Assembly (NCBI RefSeq): GCF_014279995.1
Contig: NZ_CP047935.1
Location: 407,243-471,242, forward strand
DNA length: 64,000 nucleotides
Direction: 5' to 3'
Source: Synechococcus sp. BIOS-E4-1
Lineage (GTDB): Bacteria; Cyanobacteriota; Cyanobacteriia; PCC-6307; Cyanobiaceae
The translations under genes and the position numbers were made by a program. Position 1 is the stretch's first letter, and each line of letters opens with the position of its first letter. The notes under the pieces are model-generated. The model had not been told where the DNA came from, searched no databases, and was given only the letters and a program-made list of their open reading frames with translations. Below, piece by piece: positions 16,544-33,079 of this stretch.

Positions 16544-17141
16544 AACACGCTCCCTGGTGTGGCTGACCTATCGCCTGGGGGCAACGATTGCTCTCGGTAT
16601 TCCGCTGGTGCTTCTGATCTGGTCGGGGCTGCGACGTGATCCTGCCCTTGTGAGGCTGCTCGGGATCTACTGGAAAGTGGCGAGCCTGCTGGCCATCAGC
16701 GTGCTGTTGCTCACTGATCAACGGCCGATCGGCTATCTCACGGCATTCCTCGCTCCTCTTCTGATGGCTGCGTCTCTGTGGTTCTGGGTTGACCTCAATG
16801 AGGAGCTGGCCGACGGCCCTCCGGGTCGTGCGCTGCCGTTCACGGTGCGGGTCTGGCGATGGTCCCTCACGGTCTTCGCTGTGTTTGCAGCCGTGATGTC
16901 CGGTTCGGCACTGGGCTGCACCCGCCAGCTGGCGGGTGCAGCCTGTCGGGTGTGGCTGGAAGCGCCCCAGGGGCTGCATCGGGTCGCAGAGCGGGTGTTT
17001 GACTTCGTCTTCGGCGGTGAGTGGACGATGGCCGTTGCCGCGTTCATCGGATACGTGGCGCTGGTGGCTTACGTCGTGGGTCTGCTGCAGTGGGCTCTGG
17101 TGCGCCTTCCCAAGCAGGGAAGGGTTGCAGGGGATTTCTGA
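16530..17141 (+). CDS. DUF3177-type multi-span membrane protein
   Basis: A 203-residue protein with about five hydrophobic helices (for example TYRLGATIALGIPLVLLIWS and AVAAFIGYVALVAYVVGLL) and Arg-rich cytoplasmic loops. The sequence matches what I recall of the cyanobacterial DUF3177 family, of unknown function. The 5' end overlaps the divergent FIST gene by 14 bp, an unusual head-to-head overlap that also supports the shorter FIST start. The next gene follows after 2 bp. Confidence 0.75.
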   Translation: MSDFTTRSLVWLTYRLGATIALGIPLVLLIWSGLRRDPALVRLLGIYWKVASLLAISVLLLTDQRPIGYLTAFLAPLLMAASLWFWVDLNEELADGPPGRALPFTVRVWRWSLTVFAVFAAVMSGSALGCTRQLAGAACRVWLEAPQGLHRVAERVFDFVFGGEWTMAVAAFIGYVALVAYVVGLLQWALVRLPKQGRVAGDF

Positions 17142-23396: not shown

Positions 23397-24176
23397 TTAG
23401 ATCCGTTTCTCCAAGCCTGGCAGGGGATCGATGCTTGTCATCACTTGCATGCAGGGATCGTCATCGCCGCCGATCTCACTGCCGCTGCTGGGGATCTCCA
23501 GCCAGTGTCTCAGCCAACCGGTGATCCAGATGAAAGGAAGCGTGTCCGCCAGTGCAGCGAAGGATTTGAACAGATAGCCGCTGGCGATGAACGAGATCAG
23601 TTGCGGAGCCACGGGTTCACCGGGCCGCACAGGCAACACACCAGAGGCGTAATGGCTGATCAGCACGACAGCGCTCGTGTCCACCAGCTGGCTCACCAGC
23701 GTGGAGCCGTTGTTGCGCAGCCAGAGAGCCTTGCCATTGCTCACCCTTTTCCAGAAATGGAACATCCGCACATCCACGAATTGGGCCGTGAGGTAGGCGG
23801 CCATGGAGGCGATCACTGAGCCAAAGGCCAGGCGTTGAATTTCGAAGAAGGTGGCATCGGGTGCACCGTCCACGCCTGGTAACACTCCGCCCAGCCAGAG
23901 GATCAGCACGACCCAGCCGTTGAGCAGCAGTCCAACCCAGACAACCTGAGCTGCTCTCTTTTCCCCCCAGAGCTCGCTGATCAGGTCTGTACAGAGAAAG
24001 GTGATCGGGTAGGGCAGGGCGCCAACGGCCACCACGACTGGCCATGAGCCGATGTGACCCAGCTCGAGAAAACGGGTCAGGCCCAGGATGTTGAGCATGC
24101 CCAGCGTTCCCAGGAAGAGGCCTGCAAGGACTAGAAAGCAGAATTCTCGCCGTTGCTGCAGCTCGGGATTCATCAT
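23397..24176 (-). CDS. yhhQ: VUT-family (YhhQ-like) transporter, probable queuosine-precursor uptake
   Basis: A 259-residue protein with about six membrane helices and the VUT/YhhQ signature region PYPITFLCTDLISELWGEKRA, plus AAYLTAQFVDVRMFHFWKR. Family members import queuosine precursors (preQ0/preQ1); this is inferred from family membership only. The gene marks the left edge of the accessory island. A degenerate fragment resembling its 5' end recurs at 26513-26583 inside the island. Confidence 0.85.
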   Translation of the reverse strand: MMNPELQQRREFCFLVLAGLFLGTLGMLNILGLTRFLELGHIGSWPVVVAVGALPYPITFLCTDLISELWGEKRAAQVVWVGLLLNGWVVLILWLGGVLPGVDGAPDATFFEIQRLAFGSVIASMAAYLTAQFVDVRMFHFWKRVSNGKALWLRNNGSTLVSQLVDTSAVVLISHYASGVLPVRPGEPVAPQLISFIASGYLFKSFAALADTLPFIWITGWLRHWLEIPSSGSEIGGDDDPCMQVMTSIDPLPGLEKRI

Positions 24177-24231: not shown

Positions 24232-26253
24232 TTAGATGTTGAAAAGCCCGCTTTCTCGTAAAACGGCTTCTGCCGGCTTCAAAAGCTCTTTGTAATTGTT
24301 CCAGCCGCCAACAGATCTATTGCTGATGGGTCGACGAGCCTGTATGACGCTCGCGGTATTGATACTCCTATCGCTTTGCTCTGGATGTAGATAATGATCA
24401 TTCCATTGCAGGCCAATCCAATCAATTAACTCTCTGGCTTGGTTCTCCGGACTGTTTGTGAAGTTGTCGTAGTCAAAAGTGAAAATTTGATTACCTGCAT
24501 TTTCCTTTAACGGGGAGAGTAATTCTTGTTGATGTATTATAAATTTGGCCGCATCTACCGGGTCTGCGGTGTAATTATTCCCGGCGCTCAGGTTGCTTCT
24601 AAGCATGGAAAGTACATTGTCGAGGGGATTTCTGCGACAGTGGATAATTTTTGCGGCGGGCATTGAACGATTGATTGCTTCCGCAAATCTAAAATTGTAG
24701 AGATTTTTGTCGACGCTATGAGTGAATTTTTTCAGTGGTTCATTTGCTGCTTTCGTGTAAGCATTGGCTAGTTTAGATCGTTCGGTTGGCAAGTTGTTCT
24801 CCGCTTTTTCATGAGCAAGGGCTTGGACAAATGCTTGGGATTCTCCAAGATCTTTGATGTTGGGATTTGTTGCTAAGACTGACTCGAGTAGCGTCGAGCC
24901 ACAGCGGGGAGCTCCAACAATAAAAATTCTGCCTGTTCCGTCACTTGGCTCACCAATTTGAATTTTTTCAGATATTGATAAAGCTAAGGTGGATTCTTTT
25001 AGCTGAGAGGCAAGGTCTGAACTCATGTAAATTAGCTTTTGCTTGTTTGCATTGGCTAAATGCTGAGCTGCTTTTGTGTAATTTTGTGCTTTATGAAAGC
25101 AGTTTGCCAGCGCAAACTCTAAAAATGAAGCTTCTCTATTGTTAAATTCTTTTTTGTCGAGCTTTTCTATGTCTGCGGCTAATTTGATCGCTTCCTCGCT
25201 ACTGTTAAGGCTCTTGCTAAGTTCAAAAAATGCGGCCGTATTTTTAGGATTGAGTTCTATTGCTCGAAGGAAGTAGAGAATGCCTTCATCGATGTCTCCT
25301 CTTTTCTGTTGTGCCCGACCAATTGCGCGCAAAACATCTGAGTTATCCGGATCCATCTCAATCGCCTTTTGATAGCTGTCAATGGCTGCTGTGAGCTCGC
25401 CCTTGCTCTGGAGAGCATTGCCCAGGTTGTAATAGGTGCCTGGGTGGTCGGGTTGGAGTTGGAGTGCGGTGCTGTAGCAGGCAATGGCAGATGTGAGCTC
25501 GCCCTGCTTCTGGAGGGCATTCCCCAGGTTGTAATGAGCCCCGGGATAGTCGGGCTGAATTTGGAGGGCCGTGTTGTAGGAGGCGATAGCAGCTGTAAGG
25601 TCCCCTTGTTCCTGTAGAGCATCGCCCAGGTTGTAATGAGCGTCTGGGTAGTTGGGCTGGAGTTGGAGTGCAGCCCTGTATGAGTCAATGGCAGCTCTGA
25701 GCTCGCCCTGCTCCTGGAGCGCAACTCCCAGGTTGTTATGAGCGTCTGGGTAGTTGGGTTGGAGTTGGAGGGCAGCCCTGTATGAGTCAATGGCAGCTCT
25801 GAGGTCGCCCTGCTCTTGGAGAGCATTACCCAGGTTGTAGTGGGCGTCTGGGTAGTTGGGCTGGAGTTGCAGGGCGGTGTTGTAGGAGGTGATGGCAGCT
25901 GCGAGGTCACCTTTCTTTTTGAGCGCATTTCCCAGGTTGTTATGAGCATCTGGGTAATTGGGCTCCAATTCTATAGTTTTCCTGAGCAGATCTATAAGCT
26001 CATTAAATCTGCCCTGCATTCCCAAGATTGCAGCCAGGTTTCCATAGACAATGTGATTTTTTGTTCCTGATGTAATTAAGTCTCTATAAATACGCTCTGC
26101 TTCTTGCGGTTTCCCCTGATTAATTAGTTCGATGGCTTGGTGCTCTTTGCGGGTGTGATCCGTAAAGCTTCTTTTTTTATCAGGGTTGCCATTTTTCGAT
26201 TTACTTTTGGGGGTGTTGGAGAATCCAGAGCTCTTTCTTCTGGGCTTGCTCAC
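24232..26253 (-). CDS. TPR-repeat sulfotransferase
   Basis: A 673-residue soluble protein. Residues about 35-330 form eight or nine 34-residue tetratricopeptide repeats; six are close copies of the YPDAHYNLGNALQEQGDL type. From about residue 441 comes a PAPS-dependent sulfotransferase domain: IFIVGAPRCGSTLLESVL (5'-phosphosulfate loop) and CRRNPLDNVLSMLRSNL (3'-phosphate region). TPR-sulfotransferases modify proteins or glycans; the acceptor here is unknown. It is the first gene of the AT-rich island and uses more A/T-ending codons than flanking core genes. The start follows a Lys/Ser-rich leader. Confidence 0.88.
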   Translation of the reverse strand: MSKPRRKSSGFSNTPKSKSKNGNPDKKRSFTDHTRKEHQAIELINQGKPQEAERIYRDLITSGTKNHIVYGNLAAILGMQGRFNELIDLLRKTIELEPNYPDAHNNLGNALKKKGDLAAAITSYNTALQLQPNYPDAHYNLGNALQEQGDLRAAIDSYRAALQLQPNYPDAHNNLGVALQEQGELRAAIDSYRAALQLQPNYPDAHYNLGDALQEQGDLTAAIASYNTALQIQPDYPGAHYNLGNALQKQGELTSAIACYSTALQLQPDHPGTYYNLGNALQSKGELTAAIDSYQKAIEMDPDNSDVLRAIGRAQQKRGDIDEGILYFLRAIELNPKNTAAFFELSKSLNSSEEAIKLAADIEKLDKKEFNNREASFLEFALANCFHKAQNYTKAAQHLANANKQKLIYMSSDLASQLKESTLALSISEKIQIGEPSDGTGRIFIVGAPRCGSTLLESVLATNPNIKDLGESQAFVQALAHEKAENNLPTERSKLANAYTKAANEPLKKFTHSVDKNLYNFRFAEAINRSMPAAKIIHCRRNPLDNVLSMLRSNLSAGNNYTADPVDAAKFIIHQQELLSPLKENAGNQIFTFDYDNFTNSPENQARELIDWIGLQWNDHYLHPEQSDRSINTASVIQARRPISNRSVGGWNNYKELLKPAEAVLRESGLFNI
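25370..25970 (-). repeat. Tandem 102-bp repeats encoding the TPR array
   Basis: About six consecutive 102-bp units within the TPR-sulfotransferase gene are near copies, each containing variants of the block AGGTTGTAATGAGCGTCTGG (plus-strand reading). Copies differ at a minority of positions. Units in phase with the 34-residue TPR are prone to gain or loss by slippage or recombination, so repeat number may vary between strains. Confidence 0.85.
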
Positions 26254-26341
26254 GATTGATCAGGAGGGTTCAGTCAAGGTTAGGGAAGTTTTCAAGCCAC
26301 ATCGGATAGTCACAAAGCCTGTTCCTACGGGTTCTTACGCT

Positions 26342-26478
26342 CTACCAAGCACTTTCTTCTGCCACCCTGCAGAGGTGCTGGAAGCTGACCTGGTGGGCTG
26401 CCGGCTCGTTAAACGCTCATGAGCTCTTGGGCGTGAATTTGAAGACAGGGGCGTATTCCTCGATTGAGCCTGTTGCCA
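26342..26478 (+). pseudogene. Truncated duplicate of the mpg 5' end (copy 1)
   Basis: The stretch translates as LPSTFFCHPAEVLEADLVGC then RLVKR and a stop, matching [20 protein letters not shown] at the start of the glycosylase gene near 32494. After a deletion of about 11 bases the homology continues in another frame as GVNLKTGAYSSIEPVAT, matching [17 protein letters not shown]. The similarity then ends abruptly. It is a 5' fragment with a frameshift, so it cannot make enzyme. See the mpg repeat and junction findings. Confidence 0.8.
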
Positions 26479-26512
26479 CAACAATCGATCAGAAGTCGTT
26501 GTTTTTAGTGCA

Positions 26513-26583
26513 AGAAAGCCTTTCAGTGCAGGAATGTTGAGGATCGTAAGCGTCCCTAGAAACAGCTCTGCCAGCACCAGATG
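26513..26583 (-). pseudogene. Fragment resembling the 5' region of the VUT transporter gene
   Basis: Read on the minus strand this encodes LVLAELFLGTLTILNIPALK then GFLAL. It aligns without gaps to LVLAGLFLGTLGMLNILGLT then RFLEL near the N-terminus of the transporter at 23397-24176. No continuation of the gene is found on either side. It lies about 35 bp after the end of the truncated mpg copy and faces it. Confidence 0.7.
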
Positions 26584-27222
26584 AGTGATGTCCCCTTGGC
26601 CTGAAAAGCGTTCGCCTTCTAGGCGTCGAGCAGTGGTGGTAGTTGCAGCAAAGCTGATTGCTATTGAAAAAGTTGGCTGTTAGATGCTTCCGTGGCGAAC
26701 GCGGTTGCTGAAGGGAATTCCTGGTGCTAGTCCCAAGAGAGATCTGCGGCGTGAAGTGAAAAGGTTGCCGGACCACGCTCTTGCAGCCTGCTGCGGGGAT
26801 GACTGTTCGATACCCGCTGCTGAGCCATGTTGAGATGGCATAGCGGTCAGGCAAACAGTTTTCGATTTAGAAAGGTCAAATTGTACTGATAAAATGATGT
26901 GATTTTGACTCCTTGTCGAGCTATAGGAGCTCCTTGACTTGTCACACAAACGAAGCATGTTCTCATCCTTTTGTTACGATTTTCGATATATTCTTGTCGA
27001 GGTTGAAGCGGCTTCTGGGTTTGAGCGGTGGTTTTGATGAACGCCTGGAGTTCGAATTGATGATGATCAGCTTTATTCAGGTTCAAAAGCATCGAAGCAG
27101 TTTATAGATTCATTCTAGGTTGTAAGCACTTAGTTGCTGTATTGTCTCGATTAGACATCTTCCGCAGCGAGTCTTCAGAAGCAGTGGCAATAGAATTAAA
27201 GAAAGCCTTAGCAGTTTAATTC
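26584..27222. other. AT-rich stretch without a convincing gene
   Basis: These 640 bases hold several short open frames on both strands (for example 26847-27092 on the minus strand), but none has family-like sequence or a clear ribosome-binding site. The right-hand part, about 27100-27222, is AT-rich and probably contains the promoter of the gene starting at 27223. Gene remnants too decayed to recognise are possible. Confidence 0.5.
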
Positions 27223-28413
27223 GTGGAAGTTCTCTCTGATAATCCAGACGCTGTCCCCTCTAAAGCTCAGATTTCATATGTTCTGCGCGCAGTGACAAGT
27301 TTTGCTTATCCGGAGATGTTTCAGCTGATCCAAGCACAATGTTTGCCCATCAGTAATTGTCTGTTATTCGTCGATCACTATTCAAATGTAGATGAAATCA
27401 TTATAGGGCTTGAGTTCCATCACGACAAATCAGAATTTGTTGACATATCTTTCTTTGGCCATGAATGGAGCGAAAAAATTCAGAAAAACATCATGCCTGA
27501 ATGGTGGTCTGAGATTGAAAAAATTTGTTTGGAACCATCCGGTCGCAGTGGTGATTTTGGTGGCAGTCTCTTTTCTGGTAACGATTCAATCTCTGGCCGG
27601 CTGACCAATCATGCTACTTCTACTTTGCAACTGCTAGGTGATCATATTATTGAGTGTGAGGCGCGCAATGGTCAAATCTCTGTCGCTGGTGTTTTTATTT
27701 CATTGAGTCATGAGATTAAGGAGCATGCTAAGCCTGTATTTTCTTCAGCCTTTGATGTTATCTGTGAGATCCAGCGGGCCAAAAGTGAATCGTCGATTAA
27801 GCATCAACATGGCCTAAAAAGTCTAATCACTAGTCTCGTTCAAGTGTTAGGAGAGCCCATTAATCTGGGTGTGATGGTTGGTCGTTCGCAAGATCTTAAG
27901 CTTATATTTGGTTGCTTAAAAAGCCCCATTGATATTCGTAAGGCTCTGAGCGTGGAATGTTGCGTCAATGTGTCAGCAGAGTTTTTGGATCAAGTCAATT
28001 CTGCTGTTGTGAGTCTGCTTAAAGTGAGCGACATAACCTTTAGATTGTGTCTCGATATGAATTTGCAACGAGCTGCAATTGCTCCCCGTTTTTGCTTTGA
28101 AATTTTTCCGTCTCAGGTAATGTCTGAAACTAGAAACTGGTTGGTCTTGGATCAGCTTGCTGATATTTTCGGTCTAACGATGTCGGCTACTAAGCATGTT
28201 CGCTCCGTGCATCAACATCTGCCTATTGGTCAAAAGTTAGATGCAAGGTTGGTTGACATGATGCAGGGGCGTTTTGATTTTTCGCAAAAGATGGTGAGTA
28301 AGCATAAGTATCAGCAAGCAGCGGTGCTTAGTCATTACAAGATTTGTCTTGAGCTGGGTAAAGATATCACCATTAAATCATATGCTTATGTCAAGCAGTG
28401 CCTCTCTGATTGA
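27223..28413 (+). CDS. Unrecognised 396-residue island protein
   Basis: This starts with GTG and encodes a soluble protein with no signal peptide or membrane span. It is acidic, with aromatic stretches such as ISFFGHEWSEKI and MPEWWSEIEKICLE. The C-terminal half has RLCLDMNLQRAAIAPRFCFE, and the protein ends SHYKICLELGKDITIKSYAY, a strand-rich pattern that seems to pair with the similar strand CLDMNL. I know no family for it. It is low in G+C and lies alone between truncated gene fragments and a small frame at 28516. Because it lies in the island with the precursor peptides, a link to peptide modification can be asked, but nothing in the sequence shows one. Confidence 0.75.
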   Translation: MEVLSDNPDAVPSKAQISYVLRAVTSFAYPEMFQLIQAQCLPISNCLLFVDHYSNVDEIIIGLEFHHDKSEFVDISFFGHEWSEKIQKNIMPEWWSEIEKICLEPSGRSGDFGGSLFSGNDSISGRLTNHATSTLQLLGDHIIECEARNGQISVAGVFISLSHEIKEHAKPVFSSAFDVICEIQRAKSESSIKHQHGLKSLITSLVQVLGEPINLGVMVGRSQDLKLIFGCLKSPIDIRKALSVECCVNVSAEFLDQVNSAVVSLLKVSDITFRLCLDMNLQRAAIAPRFCFEIFPSQVMSETRNWLVLDQLADIFGLTMSATKHVRSVHQHLPIGQKLDARLVDMMQGRFDFSQKMVSKHKYQQAAVLSHYKICLELGKDITIKSYAYVKQCLSD

Positions 28414-28782: not shown

Positions 28783-29412
28783 TTAATTGTGAATCAGTAA
28801 AACACGATTAATCTTCGCAATTTTCAAGCTTGTCGCTCTTGATGCGATATCTTTGAAATAAGTCTGGTCTCCATCGTGAGTTTTGTCTCTGAAGCCTGCT
28901 GCTTTAGCGAGCTCTGTTCTGACAGCTGCAGAGCTCACGTCAATGCAGTACAGCTTGAATTCAGTCTTAAAAAGATTGTAAGCAGGCTGCTTCCTTGTCC
29001 CAGGGTTGGTATGAGAGTGGATCATGTCAAATAAAATAATATCAGGCACGTCAGATGTATTATCCGAATTCTGGACTAATGTTGAAATGTATTCTGTCGT
29101 TCTCGGTATAAAGTAATTGTCTGCATTTGTCAGAATCGTATATTTGCCTTCTGATCTTTTCAGTCCCAAGTCTCTAAGCGTGTGACCATAGTCGTTGTGT
29201 CTTTTCTCTGTGCTGAAGAATTCTATGTTGGGGTGGATGTAGTTTGCTTCATTCATTAAGTTTGTGAACCCTTGGCTTTCTCCGTCATGAATGATGGTTA
29301 GTTGCCAGTTGTCATTTGTTTGATTTATCCAAGATTGTATGAAAACTCGTAGTTCCGGTAGTCTTTTGTAGGCTACAGCGATTATATGTATGAGCTTGCT
29401 CACGTCTCGCAT
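28783..29412 (-). CDS. GT-A fold family 2-type glycosyltransferase
   Basis: A 209-residue protein. It opens with HIIAVAYKRLPELRVFIQSW, continues with QLTIIHDGESQGFTNLMNEA (nucleotide-sugar-binding Asp) and has GKYTILTNADNYFIPRTTEY, where NAD takes the place of the DXD metal motif. It lacks a membrane anchor and is shorter than most GT2 enzymes, so it may be a minimal domain. The sugar and acceptor are unknown. It is AT-rich, like other island genes, and stands between the small frame at 28516 and the second truncated mpg copy. Confidence 0.75.
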   Translation of the reverse strand: MRDVSKLIHIIAVAYKRLPELRVFIQSWINQTNDNWQLTIIHDGESQGFTNLMNEANYIHPNIEFFSTEKRHNDYGHTLRDLGLKRSEGKYTILTNADNYFIPRTTEYISTLVQNSDNTSDVPDIILFDMIHSHTNPGTRKQPAYNLFKTEFKLYCIDVSSAAVRTELAKAAGFRDKTHDGDQTYFKDIASRATSLKIAKINRVLLIHN

Positions 29413-29481
29413 AGGAAATTTTCATTATTTTAGTATAAATTTGTAGATATTCTCATAGTCACTAAGGGTCTACTCGCTGTC

Positions 29482-29563
29482 CCTCTATTGTTCTTCTGCC
29501 GCCCTGCCGAGCTGGTGGGACCTGACTTGGAGGGCTGCAGGTTGGTGCAACGCCAAGGGAGTA
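29482..29563 (+). pseudogene. Truncated duplicate of the mpg 5' end (copy 2)
   Basis: The segment reads [20 protein letters not shown] followed by RQGSS and a stop, clearly related to [20 protein letters not shown] of the real glycosylase gene. Nucleotide identity is high over about 80 bp and then stops. Copy 2 lies about 3.1 kb after copy 1 and about 3.0 kb before the real gene. The large repeat described at 29572 begins immediately after it. Confidence 0.85.
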
Positions 29564-29587
29564 GCTAAGTGCCATTGGGGCTCAAGG

Positions 29588-29782
29588 ATGCTGAAACGAT
29601 TGGTTCAGAGCAGCAGGAGCAACAAAAGTAAGAGAAAGCGTGTATCGCCAGGGCAACAGCAACTCCCATTTGCATTTGATGTGCGGCTCAATCAAATCCC
29701 AGAGGAGTGGCATCAAGTTTCAGTGAGATTTAGACGCGCCAACGGCATCCGTAATGGCGATAAGGAGCGAAGCATTTGGTAA
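29588..29782 (+). CDS. Small basic island protein, copy A
   Basis: A 64-residue, strongly basic protein. It has an N-terminal Lys/Arg/Ser-rich part (MLKRLVQSSRSNKSKRKRVS), then a conserved core starting PGQQQLPFAFDVRLNQIPEE and followed by W and RFRRANGIR. The second copy at 31727 differs in this core mostly at silent positions, which supports real translation. It has no membrane segment and I recognise no family. It is transcribed opposite to the precursor genes. Confidence 0.65.
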   Translation: MLKRLVQSSRSNKSKRKRVSPGQQQLPFAFDVRLNQIPEEWHQVSVRFRRANGIRNGDKERSIW

Positions 29783-29913
29783 TTGCGTTGAGGGAATATG
29801 AGTTGATGTAGTGCCTAAGAATGCTGAGACTTTATTGGCTCTGCCTTGCGTTTTTTGTGGATGGATTGGGCTGCTGGATGGGTAAAGTCTGTACCTGATT
29901 TATTGGTAATTGT

Positions 29914-30085: not shown

Positions 30086-30322
30086 CTATGGTGAGTAACT
30101 AATACAAGCTATACCTGAGCACCCACTGTATTGACCTCCAGCCAAGCTTTCAAGCTCCTCTTCTGAAATCTCGATCTGAATGTCATCGGCTGAAATTATA
30201 TACCCCACGTCTTTAGCAATTGCAACTATTGCATCGGAATCAGCAGCGGCTTTGAGCTTCTCCTGAAGACTGATGTCAGTTTTGACTTTTTCGAGAAAGG
30301 CTTTGAATTGCTTGTCTGACAT
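30086..30322 (-). CDS. Nif11-type leader / prochlorosin-like precursor peptide 1
   Basis: This 78-residue peptide starts MSDKQFKAFLEKVKTDISLQ, has the leader segment LKAAADSDAIVAIAKDVGY, and ends its leader at EEELESLAGG (Gly62-Gly63). The predicted core is QYSGCSGIACISYSP, with Cys at core positions 5 and 10 and four Ser that could be dehydrated and form thioether rings. This is the ProcA (prochlorosin) layout: a long Nif11-type leader with a double-Gly cleavage site and a variable core. Prochlorosins are processed by ProcM-type synthetases encoded elsewhere; none is in this window. AT-rich upstream DNA includes the inverted repeat AAGTGC/GCACTT. Confidence 0.88.
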   Translation of the reverse strand: MSDKQFKAFLEKVKTDISLQEKLKAAADSDAIVAIAKDVGYIISADDIQIEISEEELESLAGGQYSGCSGIACISYSP

Positions 30323-30448
30323 GGTTATCGGAAGTCTTTTATAACCATAGCAGCGACCTCACAAAGTGCCTTTAGCTAGCACTTGCTGCGCTCAATAGTG
30401 CCAGGGATTGGAGGCTGATTTGTGGGGGTTTTTTGGGGTGATTGAAGC

Positions 30449-30509: not shown

Positions 30510-30743
30510 TTAACAGGAGTGAAGGCACCACTCCTTATCGCAATAACCACCAGCCACGCTTTCAATCTCTGTATCTGACATTTCAGACAGAGCGTTTTTC
30601 AATCTATCAGCAGAAATACTAAATCCTGCTTCTTTAGCAATGGCAGCAACAGCATTGGTATCAGCCGCAGCTTTGAGCCTTTCCTGCAGGCTGGTGTTGC
30701 CTTTGGCGTTAGCGATGAAAGCTGTGAGTTGTTCTTGTGTCAT
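30510..30743 (-). CDS. Nif11-type leader / prochlorosin-like precursor peptide 2
   Basis: I place the start at ATG 30741-30743, giving 77 residues (MTQEQLTAFIANAKGNTSLQ, then LKAAADTNAVAAIAKEAGFS). The leader ends at EIESVAGG (Gly65-Gly66). The core is YCDKEWCLHSC, with Cys at positions 2, 7 and 11 but only one Ser and no Thr. At most one lanthionine ring can form, so at least two Cys would stay free or pair as a disulfide. An in-frame extension upstream to 31079 exists but contains no leader-like sequence and is not used. It shares the leader, but not the core, with precursors 1 and 4. Confidence 0.87.
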   Translation of the reverse strand: MTQEQLTAFIANAKGNTSLQERLKAAADTNAVAAIAKEAGFSISADRLKNALSEMSDTEIESVAGGYCDKEWCLHSC

Positions 30744-31138: not shown

Positions 31139-31255
31139 TTAGTTGTTAGTTTTCTTCCAGCACTGACCTCCAGACACGCCTTCTAGTTCCTCTTCACTGA
31201 GTTCAGTAATCTTATCAGCAGTGAATTCGTGGCCATGTTCTTTAGCACAGAAGGC
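31139..31255 (-). pseudogene. Truncated Nif11-type precursor peptide 3
   Basis: Only the C-terminal half of a precursor remains. It reads AKEHGHEFTADKITELSEEE, then LEGVSGG, then a core QCWKKTNN with one Cys and one Thr. An in-frame stop lies directly upstream (31256-31258), and no N-terminal leader half is present. The bases before it continue instead into an unrelated fragment on the other strand. It is therefore a decayed cassette that still carries its terminator repeat downstream (30940-31028). Confidence 0.75.
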
Positions 31256-31573: not shown

Positions 31574-31726
31574 GCAGCCCTTTTTGCTCTCATGGCTAGT
31601 ACAGGTGACCTAGCTTCGAGCGCATGCCATTCGATCACGGTCACTACAACCAGAGCAACCCTTCAGAGCGTCCGATCTTCCTCAGCGTGGTTCCAGGCAT
31701 GTGGTTGAGGCAAGAGGGGCTCAAGG

Positions 31727-31921
31727 ATGCTGAAGCGATTGGTTGGGAGCAGTAGAAGCAAGAAGAAACGGGTCTCACCAGGGCAACAGCAACTCCCTTT
31801 TGCTTTTGATGTTCGGCTCAATCAAATCCCAGAGGAGTGGTATCAAGTTGCGGTGAGATTTAGACGGGCAAATGGCATCCGTGATGGTGATAGGGAGCGA
31901 AGGTTTTGGCAGTTGCGTTGA
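31727..31921 (+). CDS. Small basic island protein, copy B
   Basis: A 64-residue protein whose core (PGQQQLPFAFDVRLNQIPEE and RFRRANGIRDGDRERRFW) is almost the same as in copy A at 29588. Of about 11 differing codons in the aligned core, 7 are silent, and changes such as H/Y, S/A, N/D and K/R are conservative, suggesting selection on the protein. A 43-codon frame at 31624-31755 overlaps its start in another phase and is less convincing. Function unknown. Confidence 0.65.
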   Translation: MLKRLVGSSRSKKKRVSPGQQQLPFAFDVRLNQIPEEWYQVAVRFRRANGIRDGDRERRFWQLR

Positions 31922-32132: not shown

Positions 32133-32363
32133 CTATCTCGAGTAGGCGCAGGTAAAAAAACAAACAGCGCCACCCGCACCCTCAAGCTCATCATCTGAAA
32201 GTTCTGATTGAGCGTTCTTCAAGTCATCAGCAGAAATACTAAATCCCGCCTCTTTCGCAATCGCAAGAACTGCGTCTGAATCAGCAGCTGCTTTGAGCTT
32301 CTCCTGCAGGTTGGTGTCAGCTTTGACTTTTTCTAAGAAGGCTTCGAGTTGCTCTTCTGACAT
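32133..32363 (-). CDS. Nif11-type leader / prochlorosin-like precursor peptide 4
   Basis: A 76-residue precursor starting MSEEQLEAFLEKVKADTNLQ, with LKAAADSDAVLAIAKEAGFS and LKNAQSELSDDELE before the cleavage site. The leader ends EGAGG, one residue shorter than the usual EGVAGG, which may alter protease recognition. The core is AVCFFTCAYSR: Cys at positions 3 and 7, Thr at 6 and Ser at 10, so up to two thioether rings are possible. Leader sequence is closest to classical ProcA leaders. The gene is immediately left of mpg and reads away from it. Confidence 0.88.
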   Translation of the reverse strand: MSEEQLEAFLEKVKADTNLQEKLKAAADSDAVLAIAKEAGFSISADDLKNAQSELSDDELEGAGGAVCFFTCAYSR

Positions 32364-32539
32364 CTGAAAGAAAGGGCTTCATTCATTTCATTGTCTCTTC
32401 TTCAAGCAGCGTTGTCAGACTTTGGTGAAGAAGGTTTGTCGCTCCAGCCACGCCCATAGCCACTCAGCACATCGCCAAGGATTTCCCAGCACTACCTCAA
32501 TCCTTCTTCTGCCGTCCTGCAGAAGTTGTTGGACCTGAG

Positions 32540-33079
32540 TTGGTGGGCTGCAGGTTGGTGAAACGTCAAGCGGATGGAGGTTTGCTGTGGGGCGTGATTG
32601 TGGAAACGGAGGCGTATTCACAGGATGAGCCTGCCTGTCACGGTTACCGGCGCCGCTCACCGCAGAACGAAACCCTGTTTGGAGAGCCAGGGCGGTTTTA
32701 TGTGTATGTGAGCTATGGCATCCACCACTGCGTGAATGTGGTGACCGACCGCCCTGAATGGGCCAATGGCGTGTTGCTGCGTGCTGTGGCATTGCCTGAT
32801 GAGCCTGAACGGGTTGCTGCCGGTCCGGGTTTGCTGGCCCGTCGGTTCGGGATCGATCGCGGTTGTGATGGTCTATCGGTCTGCGGTGACGGTGACCTCT
32901 GGATTACACCCCGCCCGGTCGAGCTGAGCAAACCTGTTTTGCTCACCACCACCCGGATCGGGATCAATCAGGGCGAAGATCTTGCTCTGCGCTGGTACCT
33001 GAAGGCCAGTCGAAGTGTCAGCAAACGCGCTCGTGGGGATCGCTCTCCGAAGCCTGACGCTGCGTTTCAGCCCCGTTGA
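32540..33079 (+). CDS. mpg: 3-methyladenine DNA glycosylase (MPG/AAG family)
   Basis: This excises alkylated bases. Visible motifs are [20 protein letters not shown] (the catalytic Glu lies in VETEAY), [17 protein letters not shown] and [15 protein letters not shown]. Only a TTG at 32540 opens the conserved frame with a known start codon. Yet homology continues upstream in frame to about 32494 ([17 protein letters not shown]) and the frame is open back to 32429 without any ATG, GTG or TTG. The real N-terminus may therefore be about 15-30 residues longer with an unusual start, or the product may be slightly shortened. Its 5' end was copied into the island twice. Confidence 0.87.

Follow-up and report, generated by a model that had tools for sequence, protein, structure and literature searches.

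Joined mpg and VUT fragments as a probable scar of stacked insertions at a putative integration site in mpg of picocyanobacteria

SXT/R391, which inserts at prfC, exemplifies integrative elements that target the 5' portion of a coding gene and provide this gene with a new 5' end. The tycheposons of Prochlorococcus are tyrosine recombinase elements of picocyanobacterial genomic islands, with varied cargo and with tRNA genes as sites. Lanthipeptide (prochlorosin) genes are reportedly linked with TnpAREP transposases, in a preprint by Laurenceau et al. How picocyanobacteria gain and scatter their many lanthipeptide precursor genes is, to our knowledge, an open question. PMC10783134 reports that prochlorosin genes have integrases and transposases in their vicinity, and refers to a preprint that deals with TnpAREP and lanthipeptide genes.

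Elements at mpg, the gene of methylpurine-DNA glycosylase, resemble tycheposons in their tyrosine recombinase, their picocyanobacterial islands and their varied cargo, but differ in having their site in a protein gene and not in a tRNA gene. The locus is described here from the window, i.e. the whole stretch of 64,000 nucleotides that was analysed (bases 407243-471242 of genome G000, 3.31 Mb in a single contig), where fragments of mpg and of the transporter gene VUT are joined. Simple tandem duplication had been the original prediction for this joint. We consider it, with a probability of roughly two in three, to be instead the scar of stacked foreign insertions at mpg. The joint itself is ordinary, and its value is as a pointer to the mpg locus.

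Anatomy of the joint and the VUT-mpg locus in relatives

In the window, an 8.3 kb stretch of lower GC separates full VUT from full mpg (Table 1). At the joint, two 5' pieces meet, one of mpg on the plus strand (piece A) and one of VUT on the minus strand, and the 3' side is cut off in both. Sequence similarity confirms the joint and the orientation of its parts as originally predicted, with both pieces larger than first given (26306-26472 and 26475-26642). The gap between them, put at ~35 bp in that prediction, is 2 bp; these two bases (TT) fall outside either piece as assigned, and in the microhomology check of the window joint an overlap of the pieces appears possible. Piece A is similar by DNA to positions 32504-32633 of full mpg over 26354-26472 (68%, E 1e-6, self-BLAST) and to the mpg of G017 over 145 columns (72%, E 5e-19), and its start at 26306 was placed by protein comparison. 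Only decayed remains are kept in the window itself, which has two mpg scars and two transposase stubs, as well as three Nif11 precursor genes and a partial fourth. The window also contains a perfect 30-bp palindrome at 16914-16943.

Table 1. Features of the VUT-mpg island, in window coordinates
Feature	Position	Strand	Basis
Full VUT / queuosine-precursor transporter, natively to the left of mpg	23397..24176	-	Pfam Vut_1 E 5e-44; TIGR00697
TPR + sulfotransferase gene, cargo 1	24232..26253	-	78% aa counterpart of full length, same position in G028
mpg 5' piece A, cut at ~codon 58 (from tblastn reference point)	26306..26472	+	DNA and protein similarity
VUT 5' piece including start region, G012/G023 type	26475..26642	-	DNA, translated similarity, tree
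396-aa ORF, cargo 2	27223..28413	+	no family match (Pfam, PHROGs, NCBIfam)
Glycosyltransferase family 2 gene, cargo 2	28783..29412	-	Pfam Glycos_transf_2 E 1e-7
mpg 5' piece B, runs into transposase stub	29458..29560	+	DNA and protein similarity
C-terminal stub of RAYT/TnpAREP-type Y1 transposase	29549..29788	+	83% aa to full G005 protein (Y1_Tnp)
Nif11-leader RiPP precursor, GG then Cys-bearing core	30089..30325	-	TIGR03798 77 bits
Nif11-leader RiPP precursor	30513..30743	-	TIGR03798 67 bits
Partial Nif11 precursor	31166..31249	-	Nif11 family
Second transposase C-terminal stub	31718..31918	+	91% aa
Nif11 precursor in divergent orientation to mpg; 93 bp between its start and the mpg 5' reference point	32136..32363	-	TIGR03798 90 bits
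Full mpg (methylpurine-DNA glycosylase), start codon uncertain	32456..33079	+	Pfam Pur_DNA_glyco E 6e-43
Putative attB within mpg (CACCACTGCGTGAATGTGGTG; intact in window; arms CACCAC and GTGGTG)	32723..32743	+	pattern match; junctions in relatives

A joint of this kind requires a block with one end within VUT and the other within mpg. Direct adjacency of the two genes in island-free relatives, named beforehand as a check, is indeed found. In the survey of 31 genomes, G014 and G026 have no VUT match; among the 29 that have both genes, VUT (-) and mpg (+) stand side by side in divergent order in 17, with 47-218 bp between them, and are separated by islands of 751-17279 bp in 12. Relatives matching the 5' part of mpg are Synechococcus, Prochlorococcus, Cyanobium and kin, and mpg fragments occur in 12 of the 31 genomes, the majority of them beginning at the query 5' end. 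The predicted source of the transporter piece also holds: across the 31 genomes, a DNA query of the VUT piece plus its right flank (26475-27222) matches VUT only, with hits in 13 other genomes that always fall on the native VUT 5' end, and a different transporter as source finds no support. With VUT and mpg adjacent in 17 of 29 genomes and the piece matching VUT only, neither of the observations foreseen as contradicting the predicted parentage was made.

The islands of relatives differ in content. That of G022 (L053:4527-15082, between VUT and mpg) contains a lanthipeptide synthetase of LanM type (DUF4135 + LANC_like), as well as C39-ABC, ABC transporter, HlyD and OEP genes, and ORFs similar by eye in size and start to those of G022 are seen at the VUT-mpg locus of G006 (L039).

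Affinity of the VUT piece and duplication as an alternative

The VUT piece is not of the resident type. Translated, it reads VLAELFLGTLTILNIPALKGFLAL where aligned to VLAGLFLGTLGMLNILGLTRFLEL, and it reaches 69% amino acid identity to relatives over 29 residues (E 1e-8). Its alignment with the VUT genes of G012 and G023 spans 168 bp and takes in the start region, versus 107 bp with the VUT of its own genome, and at diagnostic sites it agrees with G012/G023 at 34, with its own VUT at 8 and with neither at 17. In the maximum-likelihood tree it groups with G012 + G023 (support 97/92 from 188 columns, on a long branch of 0.79), and topologies constraining it with its own VUT (AU p 0.0007) or with the clade of its own VUT (AU p 0.0018) are both rejected. 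A second VUT 5' piece is absent by DNA from all 30 other genomes searched. By protein, a decayed VUT 5' piece is found outside the VUT-mpg locus in G016:C57 (L071:3145-3333), adjoining an ORF that by eye resembles one of the G012 island.

Tandem duplication of a VUT 5'-cargo-mpg 5' block, as originally proposed, agrees with the geometry of the joint, in which two block ends cut at their 3' sides are joined, and with the ancestral order preserved in island-free relatives. The resident origin of the VUT piece and the repetition of cargo are not supported. Comparison of the fragments with the full genes, also proposed beforehand, gave an answer for one of them: the tree separates the VUT piece from the resident VUT, while piece A gives no clear signal. 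No one cargo is clearly repeated on either side of the joint, as cargo 1 and cargo 2 have no blastn match and a single tblastx match of 24% (E 0.02), cargo 1 and the Nif11 block have no match at E 0.1, and two short stretches of cargo 2 match the Nif11 block by blastn (at best 26 bp, E 0.007). Since the VUT piece groups with G012 + G023 and the cargos are unrelated, tandem duplication of the resident block is rejected, and the same event followed by divergence or loss of one cargo copy is very unlikely. Duplication of mpg-ended blocks does fit other joints, between mpg 5' ends and transposase stubs, in G022, G018, G009, at G000:760411 and at 29.56 kb of the window. At those checked, a 6-bp word is common to both parents (TGGGGC in G022, GCGGTT at G000:760411), which points to illegitimate duplication at these two.

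With a foreign VUT piece and unshared cargo, either a foreign block or a duplication already present in the donor is needed. In the latter case, tandem duplication would have taken place in a G012/G023-type donor, and the finished arrangement would have been acquired via homologous recombination in the flanks. This would explain the type of the VUT piece, and the G012 island does have two mpg fragments and two TPR genes. However, G012 and G023, like all the other genomes searched by DNA, lack a second VUT 5' piece, and the TPR gene left of the joint resembles the one at the same place in G028 (78% aa), so at least the left half of the joint need not derive from such a donor. We regard this origin as unlikely. 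Another possibility is an old scar that predates the split of the clades, in which a short block consisting of the empty VUT-mpg pair was duplicated and later took up cargo on both sides. The strong decay of the VUT piece and the differing cargos are consistent with this, but the piece is placed with G012 + G023 rather than outside the clades, and other genomes offer no comparable VUT piece by DNA and by protein only that of G016:C57. Such a scar is the least probable origin considered here.

A recombinase-linked core within mpg

Behind several mpg 5' fragments, in four genera, there is a tyrosine recombinase gene (Phage_integrase, E 4e-17). At an E-value of at most 1e-20, matches to this integrase come from 24 of 300 genomes of the family, spread over 7 of 59 genera. 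Twelve genomes combine the integrase with an mpg piece nearby, and in 11 of them this piece is upstream and codirectional (G005, G006, G012, G019, G028 and, from other genera, G142, G152, G160, G194, G262 and G264); the exception is G014, which was left out of the junction count. In 10 of the 11 junctions, that of G264 being degenerate, the match to mpg ends directly behind CACCACTGCGT(G/C)AA, and in G012 it continues ~16 bp beyond the common break. A second G160 integrase copy (85% identical over the first half), fetched as a test, also has an mpg 5' end and the same core; with it, 11 of 12 junctions break at one base, inside an inverted repeat of mpg. In G109, which has no mpg by protein, a decayed core is found at the expected place beside the integrase. 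The intact CACCACTGCGTGAA core (pattern in L004) carries the inverted repeat as CACCAC-N9-GTGGTG and lies in a conserved HHCVNVV stretch.

The core is also found as a direct repeat at both ends of elements in five genomes, with core-to-core distances of 4134 bp in G005, 4684 in G012, 4943 in G019, 3827 in G028 and 4988 in G152. In every two-core case it is the long mpg that contains the right-hand core, and both cores of G152 carry the same GTCAA variant. An integrase stands next to one att end in relatives but not in G000, the whole of which gave no integrase match, and the uninterrupted site is present in the 17 of 29 genomes without an island. Judged from these sequence patterns, the mpg core is very probably the attachment site of a tyrosine recombinase family in the relatives.

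Among the loci read, other integrases of 61% identity or less have no mpg piece within ~1.5 kb, apart from G142 (54%) and a decayed piece in G028:C18 (51%), and two G160 integrases at 60% identity (L214) have neither mpg nor core nearby. One 48% G160 match was left out of these loci, and that of G132 (70%) ends at a contig edge. Thus, the mpg site goes mostly with the nearer integrases. Relatives at 52-61% identity (L214, L108, L112-L119) have no mpg piece in the stretch read, and perhaps use other target sites. No close integrase relative was confirmed in a scan of IMG/VR viral contigs, and the 151 integrase matches in phage records are all below 60% identity. The literature searched, with preprints and most subscription journals outside its scope, gave no report of mpg as an integration site in picocyanobacteria.

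In G005 the integrase is followed by the HUH-like 180-aa ORF, the TnpAREP-type transposase and, last, a Nif11 gene in divergent orientation to mpg, and in G152 an integrase, a 180-aa ORF and a transposase lie between the cores. The elements of G019 and G012 carry TPR genes instead, with a primase-like ORF also in G012. The transposase belongs to Y1_Tnp, its nearest NCBIfam model being the REP-associated tyrosine transposase, below the cut-off of that model. The motifs WxISFHY, HxH and YLxK are kept in all seven sequences of the 180-aa ORF, and we take them to be HUH initiator motifs. Searches with this ORF gave a sub-threshold match in Pfam, none in PHROGs or NCBIfam, and one irrelevant match (E 0.15) among sequences of solved structures. 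Its structural model (pLDDT 75) has no PDB fold match at E 0.001 or better; weakly, at E 0.1-0.3, it matches viral Rep nucleases and a REP-associated transposase, mixed with unrelated proteins. As neither the fold nor the structure-sequence search gave support, the HUH label rests on the three motifs. No excision event was seen; the 3913-bp contig G006:C10 could be a circle or a chromosomal piece broken at repeats.

G028 is the nearest island genome to the window by VUT and by the 3' part of mpg (90/85 in the mpg 3' tree), and has in order VUT, a TPR gene (78% aa to that of the window), an mpg fragment reaching the core and a decayed integrase start. The flank upstream of piece A (window 26222-26309) is identical to that of G028 at 82 of 88 positions. 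Piece A itself is closest to G028 by sites (119 of 174, versus 113 with its own mpg), agrees with the G028 mpg fragment at 111 of 174, and ends ~30 codons before the core. Most simply, it is the counterpart of the G028 fragment, shortened by the joint. Because G000 has no integrase match and piece A stops short of the core, its reading as an attL remnant rests on G028. The flanks of the two genomes are near-identical, yet the scars are strongly different from the mpg start onward.

Under the preferred reading, stacked foreign insertion, the joint would mark the boundary of two independent insertions at the VUT-mpg locus, and mpg would carry the integration site of a family of tyrosine recombinase elements, with the integrase presumably cutting at the core. 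Each integration, or a later homologous recombination anchored in mpg, would add cargo and a working mpg 5' end, putatively supplied by the element, in front of the gene, and the old 5' end would stay behind as a fragment. In the lineage of the window, piece A may have been left in this way behind the TPR-sulfotransferase gene and afterwards been joined to an incoming block that starts inside a foreign VUT and has other cargo, the last joining step being a putative illegitimate recombination. A unit with a fixed mpg end as the only cause of fragments is rejected on the varied end codons of fragments without an adjoining integrase.

The gene mpg is itself a mosaic, the window and G005 differing by 0.068 over the 219 bp before the core and by 0.358 over the 330 bp after it. 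The best recombination breaks fall 6-100 bp beyond the core, near but not at it, and occur in island-free pairs too; thus, plain homologous exchange also acts at mpg. On the mpg 5' tree the island-bearing genomes do not cluster (10 changes, versus a shuffled mean of 9.4), so the island label on this tree provides no support.

Nif11 precursors, travelling scars and comparison with known systems

Three Nif11 genes of the window have ProcA-type features, i.e. a Nif11 leader, GG and a Cys-bearing core (TIGR03798, 67-90 bits). A divergent Nif11 start is found within 400 bp of 12 of the 21 mpg fragments measured, a count that omits G006:C10, two G014 pieces, G015:C2, G029:C24, G005:C1:2476478 and a 35% G022 match, all of them either without an mpg 5' end or doubtful. 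Outside the VUT-mpg locus there are eight scars (G000:760411, G009:C7 and six in G018), and all eight have such a start 90-128 bp upstream of the match start; at full mpg, the spacing is 89-125 bp in 8 of 12 islands. The native VUT-mpg locus of G018 is empty (130 bp), yet this genome has six scars. The constant spacing and the G018 pattern together imply that a unit of Nif11 gene, promoter and mpg 5' end was copied.

Tentatively, Nif11 precursors may have been taken up at mpg by a small element with integrase, HUH-Rep and TnpAREP, and copies of the Nif11-promoter-mpg 5' unit may have seeded arrays elsewhere, although this is the less probable case. If it is true, part of the lanthipeptide radiation of marine picocyanobacteria has left its fossil record in mpg scars. 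That the Nif11 expansion of G000 stems in general from such scars is not supported (3 scars versus at least 150 matches), although decayed scars may escape detection. The Nif11 family is extremely expanded, with at least 150 matches in G000 (281 candidates) and 116 in G028.

More generally, adjacent gene fragments do not necessarily signify tandem duplication. One route of lanthipeptide gene spread becomes testable through the fixed mpg landing site, its associated recombinase and the scars that travel with precursors.

As with SXT/R391, a tyrosine recombinase lies beside attL, the target gene is whole after insertion, the old 5' end is left behind and stacking is possible. The mpg elements differ in measuring 3.8-5.0 kb between cores, with no conjugation genes recognised among the elements read, and in their target, mpg, where the core is ~90 codons in and ~270 bp of the gene is therefore doubled. 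A further difference is that left-behind 5' ends, next to Nif11 genes, lie at other places in the genomes as well. What the locus shares with the system of Laurenceau et al. is that Nif11 precursors lie next to a RAYT/TnpAREP-type transposase or the stub of one; here, however, the association is bound to a fixed place, mpg, with a tyrosine recombinase and an att-like core.
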